From assembly GCA_008501765.1 (NCBI GenBank), contig QQUE01000018.1, positions 62,001-126,000 on the forward strand: a DNA stretch of 64,000 nucleotides. Direction: 5' to 3'. The DNA comes from Calditrichota bacterium (lineage in GTDB: Bacteria; Zhuqueibacterota; Zhuqueibacteria; Zhuqueibacterales; Geothermadaptataceae). Shown here in pieces: positions 8,618-38,327 of this stretch. The position numbers and the translations under genes are program-made. Every line of letters starts with the position of its first letter. Positions within the stretch are counted from its first letter, which is position 1. The notes beneath the pieces were generated by a model, which worked only from the letters and a program-made list of their open reading frames with translations, was not told where the DNA came from and searched no databases.

Positions 8618-9481
8618 TCAAAATAACCAAGTATAAACCACATATAAAGTTACCACCGGTATTACAAGCACTACAATATTCATCAACAAATTAGCATCTT
8701 TATCGCGCTCAAACTTTCCTGATGAATTGAGCACAGCATCACCTGGCAGTGAATCGATCAATTTGGCATGCTGCGGATTTTCTGGATTATAGAGCAATCT
8801 TTCCTGTGCTTCGTCTTCCAGTTTTTGCGGATTGGCCGTGTCCTCAGTGATTTTGATGCGCTTCATTGTTTCTGTTGTGAATTCAAAGGTCAAGCGTTCC
8901 AATGGTACCTCGTTTACCGTGATATTGGAAATCCCTTTTTTAATTAATGTTCCCAATGCAGGTTTGCCATTTTTGAGGAGAAATATCGTTTTACGGGCAC
9001 GTAGAATTCCAGCCAGGATTATCAGAAAACCGATGAGCGGGAAAATGAGAATGAACAGAATTCCTGCTCCAAAAAGCGAATAACGGAGCCCGGAAATGCG
9101 CGAATATTCGGGATTTGTGAACGAAAATTCCACATCGACTTTCGCGCCAACTTCATAAAATTCTCCCGTAAAGTAGGAGCGACCGTTGTATTCCCTGCCT
9201 GCGGATTCGAAAAGATAATCCATTTGCATAACCTCAACATCACCTTCTGAAGCCGAGCTCTCGCTCACTTTAACAACCAATCCTTCTGCATGGTCGAGTG
9301 TCCCGGAAAAATAATACATCGACTTAAATACTCCGTCGACACTGAAAGCCCAGCAAATGAGAATGCCAAAAAGGAAAACCGCCCAGCCAATCTGATTTAG
9401 CAACCCTCCAAAAAATATTTTTGATTTTACAAGGAGTGGAATTTTTCGTGGGGGTGTGGCAAGTGTGAAAGTTGTTTCCAT
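8618..9481 (-). CDS. DUF3592-like membrane protein
   Basis: The start chosen is the ATG at 9481, because it has an excellent AGGAGGT ribosome site four bases upstream. An upstream start at 9544 in the same frame has none. The 287-residue product has a membrane span near residue 33-50, an extracytoplasmic beta-rich domain (DYLFESAGREYNGRSYF), a long hydrophobic hairpin around 125-160, a second beta domain and a last span at the C-terminus. This alternation of spans and small beta domains resembles DUF3592 proteins, whose function is unknown. It lies 95 bases downstream of the VIT1-type gene on the same strand and may belong to that operon. Confidence 0.75.
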   Translation of the reverse strand: METTFTLATPPRKIPLLVKSKIFFGGLLNQIGWAVFLFGILICWAFSVDGVFKSMYYFSGTLDHAEGLVVKVSESSASEGDVEVMQMDYLFESAGREYNGRSYFTGEFYEVGAKVDVEFSFTNPEYSRISGLRYSLFGAGILFILIFPLIGFLIILAGILRARKTIFLLKNGKPALGTLIKKGISNITVNEVPLERLTFEFTTETMKRIKITEDTANPQKLEDEAQERLLYNPENPQHAKLIDSLPGDAVLNSSGKFERDKDANLLMNIVVLVIPVVTLYVVYTWLF

Positions 9482-32268: not shown

Positions 32269-32477
32269 AGATATTTTGCTGCAAAGTTGGATTCGTCAAA
32301 TGTATAAATTGTGAATTTAATCGGGCAAATTTAATAAAAATCCCCGGTATAACCAATATTTTAATCTGTGATAGTGAAATAGTGATGATCCAAACTGGAT
32401 TGGCTGGATTTTGGGTTGTAGCAGGAATTTAAACTGTTGATCTGGCATTTGCAGGTGTGAAATAAGTTATAAATTAG

Positions 32478-32640
32478 CGTGAGTTCGATTTAAGAAGAAT
32501 TGGGACAAAACGAATTAATTATAGGATATAGTCCGAAGGCGTCCCGCCGAGGATAACACACGAAACGCTCGGCGAGACGCCTTCGCTCTATTTTAATTAT
32601 TCTTGGTAAAGAATGTTACAGTTTACATCGAACTTACGTT
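32478..32640 (+). repeat. Family C element C2
   Basis: About 163 bases with inverted ends CGTGAGTTCGATTTAAG and TTTACATCGAACTTACG. It has an internal GC hairpin (GAAGGCGTCCCGCCGAG with CTCGGCGAGACGCCTTC). It is about 90% identical to C3 at 33649-33810 and in the same orientation; together they bracket the LuxR-type regulator gene. Confidence 0.8.
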
Positions 32641-32676
32641 AAATTAGCGCCGCATTGGAAAATGAAGATATTCAAA

Positions 32677-33336
32677 TTATACCAGTTTTTCTGTGAGCGC
32701 TTTGGCAACGGCTTCGGATTTCGAGTTCACTTCCAGTTTTTTATAGATATTTTTGATATGAAAATGCACGGTCCCTTCACTGACGAATAAAGCCGCAGCA
32801 ATCATTTTATAGGTTTTTCCCTCGCATAAATTGGCGAGAACTTGTTTTTCACGGTCGGTGAGTGAGACTTTGGGTGAGACGTGAAATGAGTTGACAACCA
32901 TGCGTGCAATTTTTGAACTCATCGGTGCGCCGCCGCGATAACAATCGTGGATTGATTCAAGGATTTCCCCGGAGGGCGTATCTTTCACCAGATAACCGGA
33001 AGCGCCGGCGCAAAGGGCATCGAAAACAAGGTCGCGGTCTTCGTGAATTGTCAGAATTAAAAAGTCAATTTCCGGATTCTCCGAGCGTATTTTGCGCATG
33101 CCATCGATGCCATTCATGCCCGGGAGAGTGATGTCGAGCAGGACGATGTCGGGTGGATTTTCCAATGTTCCTTTTATGGCTGTTTCAGCGTTCGAATATG
33201 AGCTGATGCATTTGAGTCCGGGTGTGCCGTTAATTAAAATCGCTAAACTTTCCCGAATAATAGCGTCATCTTCAACGATCGAAATCTCAATCGTGCCGGC
33301 GACTGACGTGGCCGCATTGTGCTTGTTTTTTGCCAA
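32677..33336 (-). CDS. NarL/FixJ-family response regulator (LuxR HTH)
   Basis: The 219-residue protein has a receiver (acidic pair Glu22-Asp23-Asp24, phospho-acceptor Asp68 in IVLLDITLPGMNG) and a LuxR helix-turn-helix at about 155-215 (LTDREKQVLANLCEG, VSEGTVHFHIKNIYKKL). The frame contains no upstream ATG before a stop, so a TTG at 33336 appears to be the start. It lies 593 bases downstream of the propeller sensor, whose DesK-like histidine domain is the usual partner of this regulator class. Repeats C2 and C3 flank it as a cassette. Confidence 0.9.
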   Translation of the reverse strand: MAKNKHNAATSVAGTIEISIVEDDAIIRESLAILINGTPGLKCISSYSNAETAIKGTLENPPDIVLLDITLPGMNGIDGMRKIRSENPEIDFLILTIHEDRDLVFDALCAGASGYLVKDTPSGEILESIHDCYRGGAPMSSKIARMVVNSFHVSPKVSLTDREKQVLANLCEGKTYKMIAAALFVSEGTVHFHIKNIYKKLEVNSKSEAVAKALTEKLV

Positions 33337-33371
33337 ATTTTGCCATCCATACTTTTAGTCTGGTTATTTCT

Positions 33372-33510
33372 CACGCCGAATCGCAAAGAAAAGATTTAAA
33401 GATATAAAAAACAAAACTCTGCGAGCGCAGCGAATCTGCGTGAGGTGCTTTTTAAAACAACTTTATTTTTTTCATCAATCTACTCTGGTTATCCAAATAA
33501 GTCAGCAAAC
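33372..33510 (-). repeat. Family E repeat, copy E1
   Basis: This stretch contains AAAGATTTAAAGATATAAAA, then AACAAAACTCTGCG, GTGCTTTTTAAAACAACTTT and TCATCAATCTAC. Reverse-complement versions of these blocks occur in two separated pieces at 56531-56570 and 56890-56950. It ends with TCTGGTTATCCAAATAAG, related to the family F terminus. Confidence 0.6.
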
Positions 33511-33648
33511 TTAAAACTAGGAATAATAGAAAATTGTCCGCTAATTAGGCAAATATTACTAATAAAAATTATTAGAAATTCAGGCTCGTTTACTCCAAAA
33601 AAATATGCGTGTAAATTGGAGTGATTCGTAGTTTGGCTTTATTAAATA

Positions 33649-33810
33649 ACGTGAGCTCGATGTAAGAAAATTGGGACAAAACGAATTAATTATAGGATAT
33701 AGTCCGAAGGCGTCCCGCCGAGGATAACGCACGAATCGCTCGGCGAGACGCCTTCGCTCTATAATAATTATGCTTGGTAAAGAATGTTACAGCTTATATC
33801 GAACTCACGT
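33649..33810 (+). repeat. Family C element C3
   Basis: 162 bases with near-perfect inverted ends ACGTGAGCTCGATGTAAG and CTTATATCGAACTCACGT (the plus-strand right end begins AGCTTATATC). The same GC hairpin as C2 is present. It lies just upstream of the regulator gene and downstream of the propeller sensor gene. Confidence 0.8.
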
Positions 33811-33929
33811 ATGTTAAGCATGTTCTATAAAAAATTTATAAATAATTCAGGGTAGAAAATCTGATAAAAGCAGCTTTCCATCGGGTCTTATTATTTGAAT
33901 ATAAGAAAACGGATGCTCGTTTACAATGT

Positions 33930-36900
33930 TCAACTTGCCACATTGTTTTTATCAGGAATGGCGCCGGCGAGTACAATTCGCATTCCATCAGCAGTCAGAC
34001 TTGCATCCAGTTTTGCGGTAATTTTATCAGCACGCTTTTGCATCATAACTTGCAAATTATTGAAAAACTCGTCCTGTGCTTCCGTGGGCCGGCCATCCGT
34101 TTCAATCTCAATTTTATAGTTAAAGCCAGTTAAATAGATGCGAAAAGTTACATTTTCGCAGGTAACATATTTTTGCAAACCACTGATAGCTTCTTTGAAA
34201 ATATAGGTAAATTGGCGCCGCCACTGCATTGGCAACCGCACAGTTTTCATCTTTTCCTCGAGCCCATCAACCCAGAAACCAATATTTTTTTTATTAAAAA
34301 AGTGATCCCCATAATCTTTCATATAAAAAGCGAAATCGAAAAAGGAATCAACGTCTGGATCCAGTGTCCAAATAAAATTTCGCATTCCGCTGGACAGGTT
34401 GCGGGAGATTTCTGCCATCGTATCGAGATAGGGTGATACCTGCTCGGGATTTTTTAATATCCCCCTTTTAATGAGTTCGATATAAAGTGTAATCCCGGAG
34501 AGTTTGTGCCCAAATTCATCATGAAAATCTTCAGCAACCTGTTTGCGTACACGCTCGTTTTCGGCGTGGCGGATGCGCTCCAGGTCAATTTGGCGGCGAA
34601 CTTTTTGCCGTACACGCCGGTTGTGCGAAATCACCACGGCTCCGACGATCGATAGAATTGTCACAAAATAAAACCAGTTTTTTTTATAAAATGGGGGCGT
34701 AACGATCAGTGCAGTTGAAGTTGCTGATTCATTCCAGATTCCATCGCTATTGCTGCCCTGCACCATAAAAGTGTACTCTCCAGGATCAAGGTTGGTGAAA
34801 CTGGCAAAACGGCGATTTGAATTAACACGCAACCATTCTTTATCGAAGCCTTCGAGTTTATATTTGTACTTGTTGGCAGGGGGATTTGTATAATCCAGCG
34901 CTGAAAAATGAAAGGTAAAAAAATTATCATTGTGGGACAGCTTTATATTTTTCGGATCAAACGGAACTGGTTTATTATAAATTGTAAATGCTGTTAAAAC
35001 AACAGGTGGGATATGCTCGTTATTGAGAATATTTTTGGGATGAAATTCATCGAACCCGTTAATGCCGCCAAAAAACATGGTACCGTCGCTGATTTTTAGC
35101 GCCGCGCCACCGCTGTATTCCCGGCCTTGCAAACCATGACTGACACCGTAGGCCATGAATTTGTTTTTCGATCGGTAATATTTGTAAATTCCGTTATTTG
35201 TACTCAACCACAGGTTCTTGTCACTGTCTTCGAGAATACCGTAAACTGTTTTGTCGGTTAAACCTTCTTTTTCGCCAAATATTTTGAATTGACGGTCGCC
35301 GCGTTCAAATTTATTCAGACCTCCGCCGTCGGTGCCAACCCACAACAATCCATCTGAATCCAGCAGGATTGCAAGTACGCGATTATCAGAAAGGCTGTTC
35401 GGATTTGATGCCTCATTGTGGTAACGGTTGATTTCTCCGGTTTTCAAGTTCAGCGAGGCCAGACCTCCACCGTAAGTACCAATCCATAATAGGCCGGCAT
35501 TGTTATAACTCAGGGTATAAACGAGGTCATCGGGAATGGAGTTCTCATCTTCGGGATTAAACCTGAATTGGGTGAAGGCATCGCTGGCGCGGTCGTATTT
35601 ATTCAGGCCACCACCAAATGTGCAAACCCAGAGCGTGCTGTCCGGTGTTTCGTAAAGTGATCTTATCTGGTTTTGGCTCAAACTGTGGCTGTCATCCGGA
35701 TTATTGCGGTAGGTTTGGAACTGAATTTCCAGGGGTGTGTTCATCAAAGATTTGTGGGATTTTACACCTTTTTTCGCTGCTTTTCCCGGCTGCCGGTTAA
35801 TTGGCACGCGCGAACGGTTCAGGCCTTCGCTGAAAGTTCCGACCCACAAATATCCATAGGAATCGCACAATATTGAGCGAATGTGATTTTGTGATAGGCA
35901 ATATTTATCATCGGGATTGTGAGTGAAATGCTCGTATTTTCCGGTATGACGATCAAAGCGGTTTAATCCTCCTTCAAATGTGCCAACCCAAACATGGCGG
36001 CCGTTGGATAATTTATCCTCCCCAAAAGCATAAATAATATTGTCGTTGAGTGAAGTTGGATCATCCACATTCGTTTTGCGGTGGATGAATTTTTTTAGAT
36101 TGGGAACAAATTTATTTATTCCCTGCCCGAGTAAAGTGCCAATCCATAAAACGCCGCCATCGTCTTCATGCAGCGCGGTGATATTGTTATCGCTTATAGA
36201 AAAAGGATCGTTCGGGTCATTTTGATAGGAGATAAATTTTCCTGATTGCGGCTCAAAACGATTTAGACCTCCACCGAAAGTCCCGATCCACAGGGCCTGG
36301 TTTTGCCCTTCGCAGATGGAAAGAATATTGTCATTACTCAGGCTGAATTTATCGGTGCTTTCATGCCGGTAATGCTGAAAATGAATCGGCTGGTATGCAT
36401 AGGTTGACTCACCACGCGTGCTCTTGATTATTCGATTGAGTCCGCCCAAAAAGGTTCCAACCCAAATATTGTTTTGCGAATCCTGAAACAAGGTCGATAC
36501 CCGGTCATCACTTAAACTTCTCCGGTTTTTTGGCGTGTGCCGGAAGTGGGAAAACCGGACATTATTTTTATTCGATGAAGGGTATGATTTAAATTCCTTA
36601 AAAATATCAACTTTGGTGTCATAGCGATTCAAACCACCGCCAAATGTTCCCACCCACATAAAATTATTGTTATCGCAAATCAAGCTGGAAACACGGTTTG
36701 AACTCAGGGCGTTGGGTTCGTCTTTTCTATACTGCACATAAACAAATTCTTCCTTCTTTTTGTTAAATATAGCAATGCCGGAACCCCAGGTTGCCAGCCA
36801 TAAATTTCCAGGGGCATCCTCGGCAATGGCTGTAATTGTATTTCTTGAGTAAAAGGCAAAGGTTGCGGGGTATTCGGTTGGAACAACCGCCTCATCTTGC

Positions 36901-37337
36901 GTGAAGAGTTCAGGTGGATCGATTATAAAATTTGTAAAGCTGTGTGATTTTCTGTTATAGCGAGCTAAAACACCAATTGAGGTTCCAAACCATAAGTTTT
37001 CGTCGGCGTCTTCGAAAATGGCATGTGTCCTGGGATCGCCGATCGAGGTTGTATCGTTGTGCTCTTTTTTGTGGATGAGAAAATCGTAGCCATCGAACCG
37101 GTTGGTTCCGTGTGCGGTAGCAAACCACATGAATCCCTGGCTATCCTGGTGAATATCGTGAATGGTTGAAACCGATAAACCCTGCTGCAACGAAATTTGT
37201 TGAAATTGTGCCTGCGTTGAATTTGAGGTGGTGCCGGCGGCTAATTTTACGGAGAGATTGGGCAGCACGGTTATGATTGCAATTGATATGAAAAAAGGTG
37301 TTTTGCGATTCGTCAACTTTTTCAACATTGGCAGCAT
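33930..37337 (-). CDS. Reg_prop double-propeller sensor with DesK-type histidine domain and degenerate ATPase
   Basis: The 1135-residue protein has an N-terminal signal/anchor and then about 14 propeller units of the type LWVGTFGGGLNRYD, enough for two seven-bladed propellers (about 45-770). A Y_Y_Y domain follows (YKLEGFDKEWLRV), then one span near 880-900 and a HisKA_3 domain with His939 in EDFHDEFGHKLSG. The last 140 residues align with a HATPase domain, but the N box reads FKEAISGLQKY (usual Asn and His replaced) and the DxGxG box is replaced by IETDGRPTEA near 1079. Propellers of this class sense glycans in Bacteroidetes. Kinase activity is doubtful here; it may work as a phosphatase, or with a partner kinase. 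No strong ribosome site is seen. Confidence 0.88.
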   Translation of the reverse strand: MLPMLKKLTNRKTPFFISIAIITVLPNLSVKLAAGTTSNSTQAQFQQISLQQGLSVSTIHDIHQDSQGFMWFATAHGTNRFDGYDFLIHKKEHNDTTSIGDPRTHAIFEDADENLWFGTSIGVLARYNRKSHSFTNFIIDPPELFTQDEAVVPTEYPATFAFYSRNTITAIAEDAPGNLWLATWGSGIAIFNKKKEEFVYVQYRKDEPNALSSNRVSSLICDNNNFMWVGTFGGGLNRYDTKVDIFKEFKSYPSSNKNNVRFSHFRHTPKNRRSLSDDRVSTLFQDSQNNIWVGTFLGGLNRIIKSTRGESTYAYQPIHFQHYRHESTDKFSLSNDNILSICEGQNQALWIGTFGGGLNRFEPQSGKFISYQNDPNDPFSISDNNITALHEDDGGVLWIGTLLGQGINKFVPNLKKFIHRKTNVDDPTSLNDNIIYAFGEDKLSNGRHVWVGTFEGGLNRFDRHTGKYEHFTHNPDDKYCLSQNHIRSILCDSYGYLWVGTFSEGLNRSRVPINRQPGKAAKKGVKSHKSLMNTPLEIQFQTYRNNPDDSHSLSQNQIRSLYETPDSTLWVCTFGGGLNKYDRASDAFTQFRFNPEDENSIPDDLVYTLSYNNAGLLWIGTYGGGLASLNLKTGEINRYHNEASNPNSLSDNRVLAILLDSDGLLWVGTDGGGLNKFERGDRQFKIFGEKEGLTDKTVYGILEDSDKNLWLSTNNGIYKYYRSKNKFMAYGVSHGLQGREYSGGAALKISDGTMFFGGINGFDEFHPKNILNNEHIPPVVLTAFTIYNKPVPFDPKNIKLSHNDNFFTFHFSALDYTNPPANKYKYKLEGFDKEWLRVNSNRRFASFTNLDPGEYTFMVQGSNSDGIWNESATSTALIVTPPFYKKNWFYFVTILSIVGAVVISHNRRVRQKVRRQIDLERIRHAENERVRKQVAEDFHDEFGHKLSGITLYIELIKRGILKNPEQVSPYLDTMAEISRNLSSGMRNFIWTLDPDVDSFFDFAFYMKDYGDHFFNKKNIGFWVDGLEEKMKTVRLPMQWRRQFTYIFKEAISGLQKYVTCENVTFRIYLTGFNYKIEIETDGRPTEAQDEFFNNLQVMMQKRADKITAKLDASLTADGMRIVLAGAIPDKNNVAS

Positions 37338-37463
37338 TCGGTAATGATTTTTTCAGCGATTTTTTTGCAAGAATGCATCATCCTGATGTGTAAAAGTTGA
37401 TAGACGCTTATGGTGCACAGTTGTTGCAATTATACGGGGAGAAAAGTGCTGTGAGCAAGGAAA

Positions 37464-38327
37464 TTATTTTAATGCTGTTTGTATTTTAAGCTCGCCGATA
37501 GCAAATTTCGCATATTTGTCTTTCCACTCAGGCAATTGGTGATTTACCATGGTCACTGCAACAAAATAATGTTTGTCGCCAATCTCAATTATTTCCGCTC
37601 CACGGCCCCGAATCTGTCCTTGATATAATTTTTCGCCAGTCCTGTTGTGCAAAGAATAGCGCGAATATTCACCCCCGTAGCGCCCCGTCGATATGAAAAA
37701 TGGCAGCGGATCCAGATTATAATGTTTGGTGTAAGGACGCAGCAGAGAATCGGTAATAACGAATTTCCCGGGCTGCACGGTTAGGGAAAAGGTATTCGCT
37801 AAATTCAGGCTTGCCAAATTTTCTTTGGTTACATAGCCATGATTAAATGAAACACTATCATTTCCCGCATAAACCTGAAATAGGTCCCCGGCTTTTTTCA
37901 CCTTGAGCTGGCTTTTAGACCAGATTTCAGGATCGGGTAATTTGATAGCTCCGGCGCCTTCTACGATGACTTCCAATGGCATGCCGCGGCTGTCGACAGC
38001 AAACCACAGTGTATTGTTGGGGGGTGGATTCCACGCAACTTCGGTTTGCAGGCGGCTGTCGATAAACCAGATCGTGCCAATCAAAAAGGCACCGGTCCCG
38101 GCAATTTTCCAGGCTCGAATCTGAAAAGACGTTTCTCCAATTCCGCCTAAAAAACGGTAAACGAGCGCCGCAAGCCCCAATCCTAAAAAGGTGGCAACCA
38201 CCGTCCCCGTACCAGGCGCTTTGCTGAATAAAAAAAGGAGAACAGCCAGCAACAAACTGAAGGTTATGGTGGTGAGAATGACTTTATCCTCAAACGTATT
38301 TCTTGTTTTTTCGTTTTCATCGACCAC
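37464..38327 (-). CDS. Membrane protein of unknown function
   Basis: The frame can start at TTG 38348, but GTG at 38327 has AAAGGA eight bases upstream and is preferred (287 residues). There are three hydrophobic segments in the first 100 residues (TTITFSLLLAVLLFLF, VVATFLGLGLAALVYRF, IAGTGAFLIGTIWFI). A soluble, beta-rich domain of about 190 residues without obvious catalytic motifs follows. I do not recognise the family. It stands 126 bases upstream of the propeller sensor on the same strand and 40 bases after the flavin-reductase-like gene, so it may be in one transcript with either. Confidence 0.7.
   Translation of the reverse strand: MVDENEKTRNTFEDKVILTTITFSLLLAVLLFLFSKAPGTGTVVATFLGLGLAALVYRFLGGIGETSFQIRAWKIAGTGAFLIGTIWFIDSRLQTEVAWNPPPNNTLWFAVDSRGMPLEVIVEGAGAIKLPDPEIWSKSQLKVKKAGDLFQVYAGNDSVSFNHGYVTKENLASLNLANTFSLTVQPGKFVITDSLLRPYTKHYNLDPLPFFISTGRYGGEYSRYSLHNRTGEKLYQGQIRGRGAEIIEIGDKHYFVAVTMVNHQLPEWKDKYAKFAIGELKIQTALK

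Follow-up and report, generated by a model that had tools for sequence, protein, structure and literature searches.

A propeller-type HisKA_3 sensor with a degenerate ATP site, probably a natural pseudo-histidine kinase, beside its NarL-type regulator

Introduction

What becomes of a two-component sensor that keeps its phospho-acceptor histidine and its adjacent regulator when the residues that bind ATP in its relatives are gone? The question is raised by a gene of a Calditrichota bacterium (contig QQUE01000018.1), found in a window of 64,000 nucleotides, the whole stretch of DNA that was analysed.

Pseudo-histidine kinases are histidine kinase homologues whose sequences show the loss of at least one kinase function (PMC12632262), and the same source, citing Collins and Childers 2021, already treats them as a recognised kind. 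DivL (PMC4211667) has been studied, as has an evolved variant of ChrS (PMC9491836); functional neighbours include the phosphatase-only DrBphP (PMC8292422) and the split kinases (PMC3591291). Natural examples in which the phospho-histidine is kept, the ATP site is lost and the protein's own regulator adjoins are rarely documented, and no propeller-type HisKA_3 pseudokinase was found described in the literature searched, which was covered in part.

Results

The sensor gene (33930..37337, minus strand, as are all features of the protein given below) encodes 1135 residues, in agreement with the original prediction. The order of domains is a 14-unit propeller, a Y_Y_Y domain, a transmembrane segment and HisKA_3. 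The double beta-propeller region (residues 40-780; 34998..37220) consists of Reg_prop units (PF07494, 192 bits in 11 stretches); Pfam scores 11 of them, and the 14 previously proposed can be counted by eye in the translation as W-x-G-T-like units. The Y_Y_Y domain (PF07495, 73.5 bits) occupies residues 815-879 (34701..34895) and the HisKA_3 DHp domain, delimited from Pfam and the alignment, residues 925-1000 (34338..34565), with the PF07730 match itself at residues 931-996 (39.4 bits against a cut-off of 24). All three families score above their Pfam cut-offs. The CA (ATP-binding) domain (residues 1008-1128; 33954..34316) has a predicted fold and has lost its nucleotide-binding residues.

The DHp domain has retained 20 of 22 conserved positions in the alignment (918-1000). 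The phospho-acceptor His939 (codon at 34521..34523) lies at the exact position, in the good context that had been claimed for it (DFHDEFGHKL), and the DHp part of the HPK7 signature, a HisKA_3 domain with an H-D acceptor histidine, is present. Downstream, D940-x-x-x-H944 is kept at the position of the D-x-x-x-Q/H motif. As intact homologues carry HDELGQ or HDELGH at this motif, with His common among them at its second position, H944 is an accepted residue at the site. The sequence features of a HisKA_3 transmitter phosphatase, namely D-x-x-x-Q/H beside the histidine and a partner with an intact receiver, are both found.

No HATPase domain was detected by Pfam in the whole protein, and residues 1008-1135 alone yielded no hit to any Pfam family at E<=10, whereas the corresponding C-terminal region of two intact homologues matches HATPase_c with 38.8 and 41.9 bits. 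Four positions are 100% conserved in about 44 intact homologues, and three of them have changed: Asn1053 of the N box is Gly, Asp1080 of the G1 box is Thr and Gly1095 of the G2 box is Leu, while Gly1082 is kept. Further changes relative to these homologues are Gly1084 to Pro, Gly1093 to Asn and Thr1119 to Met. The degenerate N box reads FKEAISGLQKY (residues 1047-1057; 34167..34199), without its asparagine, as first noted. The G1 box reads IETDGRPTEA (residues 1078-1087; 34077..34106), and here the claim that DxGxG had been replaced holds for Asp1080 and Gly1084 and not for the Gly of D-x-G, which remains. The Asp of TDG (D1081) occupies the second, D/N-variable position and is not the invariant Asp. 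In all, four nucleotide boxes are lost (N, DxGxG, GxGL and GT), and the HATPase_c part of the HPK7 signature, which these boxes make up, is missing. The GxGL and GT losses are additional to the two boxes originally reported.

Within the domain, Glu1049, Lys1056, Gly1082, Arg1102 and Ala1103 are kept, as are 16 of 19 hydrophobic core positions, but no more than 10 of 18 identity-conserved positions in the alignment. A search for alternative ATP ligands gave no Asn or Asp at neighbouring aligned positions other than the variable-position D1081. A frameshift or a wrong start was rejected as the cause of the divergence, the gene being a single open frame that aligns end to end. In GHKL kinases lacking the residues concerned, binding of ATP-Mg and autophosphorylation are not expected. 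The sensor is predicted from its residue losses to lack productive ATP binding and autophosphorylation. In CrdS, the N-box mutant N482K is kinase-deficient (PMC3510030).

An AlphaFold2 model comprises a DHp domain and a GHKL-like CA fold, with a mean pLDDT of 85 and values mostly of 88-97 in CA; because intact relatives dominate its alignment, the model is taken as supportive only. The best solved structural match of the predicted core is DesK, to which the sequence by itself matches in the DHp domain alone (residues 4-72 of the fragment compared).

Relatives were gathered from the relatives of the genome itself, from a pattern search of 84,980 species and from the phylum; they are Calditrichota/KSB1-type MAGs and Bacteroidota. 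It had been asked whether the same residues are lost in all close homologues, and the reverse was found: nearly all are intact, the homologues of the same class and of the Bacteroidota keeping the ATP-site residues. The nearest orthologue (L097/L010) is 48% identical over the C-terminus and fully intact. Among about 120 related C-terminal domains, some of them fetched twice, both Asn and Asp are lost in only one other, so the double loss in the sensor is not due to chance. That other (L083/L044; contig C90 of genome G013; FKESMDYLARQP, LSYAAANLNG) is a sensor-less protein from another family of the same order, and apart from it no orthologue sharing the loss was found in the class and phylum genomes examined or by the pattern in 84,980 species.

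The gene for L083 (JAKEEU010000314.1, 7589-8440) has an intact H box and has lost the N, D and G boxes; the whole propeller is absent, with no remnant upstream, and an intact LuxR-type regulator lies 3' at 8722-9345. The AlphaFold model of L083 shows the same fold, which is weak evidence given the intact relatives in its alignment. A second protein of that genome (L055, G013:C95) is partly degraded, its N-box Glu being Ala (KE to KA) and its GxGL being GPDW, which suggests an intermediate stage of ATP-site loss. The tree of the response regulators groups L083 with L055 (97% support) and not with the sensor studied here, so independent losses in the sensor and L083 are more likely than a common origin, although the tree of the sensors is weakly supported. 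It is a doubtful generalisation, and would need the ATP site to have been lost more than once in the propeller sensor kinase family while phospho-His, docking surface and regulator were kept, that such losses recurrently yield signal-gated phosphatases or phospho-acceptors.

The partner is a NarL/LuxR-type response regulator (32677..33336, minus strand), the cognate partner of the family, whose receiver has its acidic pair, phospho-Asp, Thr and Lys all present. In 45 of 51 homologous loci the regulator directly follows the kinase on the same strand, which supports the proposed link between the sensor and the LuxR regulator next door. The intervening gap is 594 bp here, longer than at the other compared loci, and holds a MITE-like repeat; no known RNA element was identified in it and no terminator was found by scan.

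This exact protein occurs in a single genome, and rates were taken from branch lengths. On a fixed tree its terminal branch measures 2.1 substitutions per site in CA (bootstrap 1.55-2.95), compared with values of 0.87 for the propeller, 0.88 for DHp and 0.67 for Y_Y_Y; CA alone is thus about 2.5 times faster, other members of the tree showing mostly similar rates across domains. The excess over the expected branch corresponds to roughly 80-250 amino-acid changes, and the 128 codons of the open CA frame contain neither a stop nor a frameshift. A neutral simulation of substitutions alone left 4.5% of frames free of stops at 60 missense changes and 0.6% at 100. For about 80 substitutions, the lowest estimate of the excess, it puts a stop in more than 95% of cases. 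Simple neutral decay of the sensor is unlikely because the acceleration is limited to CA, the 128-codon frame is open and 16 of 19 core positions are kept. The original prediction had likewise judged that the protein was not simply decayed, and the confined acceleration, the open frame and a loss specific to this sensor agree with it. GC3 is 0.40 in the CA stretch versus 0.46-0.48 in the rest of the gene, which hints at relaxation.

The locus is collinear in the sister species (G001) for an M1 peptidase, a nucleoside deoxyribosyltransferase-like gene, a flavin reductase, u294, phoB, phoR and a porin, with the u294-phoB interval measuring 300 bp there and 5.2 kb here, where it contains the sensor, the regulator and two repeats (32273..37488). 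Since the pair is missing from the sister-species locus and the sensor from all of the six other family genomes (0/6), it was either gained here or lost in relatives. The repeat in the sensor-regulator gap (172 bp; 33638..33810, no strand assigned) has a second copy 3' of the regulator gene (32467..32639, likewise without strand), 92% identical. It is bounded by terminal inverted repeats (ACGTGAGTTCGAT ... ATCGAACTCACGT), folds into a hairpin of very high stability (RNA z-score -8.7) and has no match in Rfam. The contigs of the genome carry at least 40 copies that are 93-96% identical (40 scored of 146 first-look candidates), so the repeat has spread recently.

Discussion

The sensor is probably a natural HisKA_3 pseudo-histidine kinase, judged by its sequence, that arose from a propeller/Y_Y_Y/HisKA_3 kinase paired with the adjacent NarL-type regulator; at the sequence level that marks the kind, its whole nucleotide site is lost. 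As to its function, a phosphatase, a scaffold and a phosphate receiver are not separated by sequence alone. The reading that ranks first, and is held tentatively, is that the sensor acts on the regulator as a signal-gated phosphatase or serves as its docking partner. The missing HATPase match, the acceleration of CA alone, the DHp domain with 20/22 positions, the CA core with 16/19 and the intact regulator point this way, and the open frame, the kept CA core and the conserved pairing are arguments for retention of a sensor that may still be integrated in signalling.

The sensor would still dimerise and dock its regulator, and a signal at the propeller could alter the DHp-CA geometry and switch the protein between docking states. 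The most likely net output would be removal of phosphate from the regulator, or its sequestration, with acetyl phosphate or a different kinase as the source of that phosphate. The CA domain may persist as a folded structural element that imposes a phosphatase-competent conformation, as in the 'butterfly' state of DesK. HisKA_3 phosphatases need the D and Q of D-x-x-x-Q and not His (PMC3510030, PMC5231405, PMC12632262), and in NtrB and EnvZ the DHp domain alone is a phosphatase whose activity the CA domain raises (PMC3510030); a retained, ATP-less CA domain fits this behaviour.

Several observations count against the phosphatase reading. A ChrS with a frameshifted CA domain has lost phosphatase action (PMC9491836), DivL has neither kinase nor phosphatase activity (PMC4211667) and the DrBphP phosphatase needs ATP (PMC8292422). 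The retention of His939 also counts against a pure HisKA_3 phosphatase, which has no need of it.

Next in rank, and unlikely, is early decay, in which kinase function was lost recently after acquisition of the cassette and the gene itself is now being lost, its frame open for lack of time. The absence of the cassette from the sister species and the family, which would make it dispensable in the lineage, is in keeping with this, as are the mobile repeat between sensor and regulator, the lowered GC3 of CA, and L083, the second ATP-site-less homologue, which is also without its whole sensor region. It is opposed by the excess of some 80-250 CA substitutions that left all 128 codons free of stops and frameshifts, by the normal rates of DHp and propeller, by the kept hydrophobic core and by the intact regulator.

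Ranked after decay, and also unlikely, is a role as phosphate receiver or heterodimer, with another kinase phosphorylating His939 in trans or an active dimer partner steering phosphate to the regulator. His939 and the whole DHp domain are kept, more than a pure phosphatase requires, and precedents are the split kinases CheA3/CheA4 (PMC3591291) and the ChrS pseudokinase, where ChrA is phosphorylated only by the paralogue HrrS and native ChrS-HrrS heterodimers occur (PMC9491836). The genome does contain one intact paralogue (C3:153387-153992), whose own regulator is 50% identical to that of the sensor. However, there are just two other HisKA_3 proteins in the genome, both distant; the DHp domain of the paralogue is 30% identical to that of the sensor, and the helix after His reads SRLSKIASSGL in the paralogue versus TLYIELIKRGI in the sensor, the latter resembling the sensor's own orthologues. 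The distance of both proteins and the different DHp interface of the paralogue weaken the receiver role.

A reader of the DivL type, in which a dead core senses the phosphorylated regulator and relays by protein contact as neither kinase nor phosphatase, is improbable. DivL has kept its fold and detects DivK~P, with ATP binding about 19-fold weaker than in most kinases (PMC4211667), and the parts kept in DivL are also kept here, but DivL has lost the His whereas the sensor retains it with the D-x-x-x-H pair, and no second kinase was found whose link to the sensor-regulator pair is conserved. That the protein has kept its kinase activity, with ATP and magnesium held by other residues, is very improbable: Glu1049, Lys1056, Gly1082 and Arg1102 are kept and a GHKL-like fold is predicted, but the Asn, the Asp, three box glycines and the GT Thr are gone, the only neighbouring Asn or Asp is the variable D1081, and there is no HATPase match.

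Among known systems, the CA-frameshift variant of ChrS from Corynebacterium glutamicum (PMC9491836) is similar in being a regulator-paired kinase with the His kept, a dead CA and an intact paralogous pair in the genome; that variant arose by frameshift in the laboratory and has a truncated CA, whereas the present sensor is natural and full-length, with propeller input and a CA domain that looks folded and is dead in its residues. DivL of Caulobacter (PMC4211667) shares a kept kinase core fold, and is itself a poor nucleotide binder that has been repurposed, but it has Tyr for His and PAS sensors, acts on CckA and is without phosphatase action. In place of the PAS domains, Tyr and alphaproteobacterial CckA of the DivL family, the sensor has a propeller, His and Calditrichota-type relatives. 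DesK-DesR and NarX have in common with it a HisKA_3 DHp domain, a NarL-type regulator and the D-x-x-x-Q/H motif; DesK differs in binding ATP and autophosphorylating, with its own N, D and G residues present. Closest are the propeller/Y_Y_Y/HisKA_3-LuxR pairs of Calditrichota/KSB1 and Bacteroidota (L097, L048, L050, L053 and others), with the same architecture and gene order. Their DHp domains are 42-54% identical in the closest ones, and the regulators beside the closest orthologous, intact kinases 62-64% identical to the one here; unlike in the sensor, all ATP-site boxes are intact in them.

If the sensor works as a dedicated phosphatase or as a receiver of phosphate, a two-component pair would have been inverted or rewired by the loss of a single activity. 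The protein offers a clean test of whether nucleotide in CA is needed for HisKA_3 phosphatase action. The regulator also has an altered DNA-recognition helix (32680-32867), reading EGTVHFHIKNIYKK versus EETVRRHIKNIYKK in most relatives, which hints at a changed DNA target.
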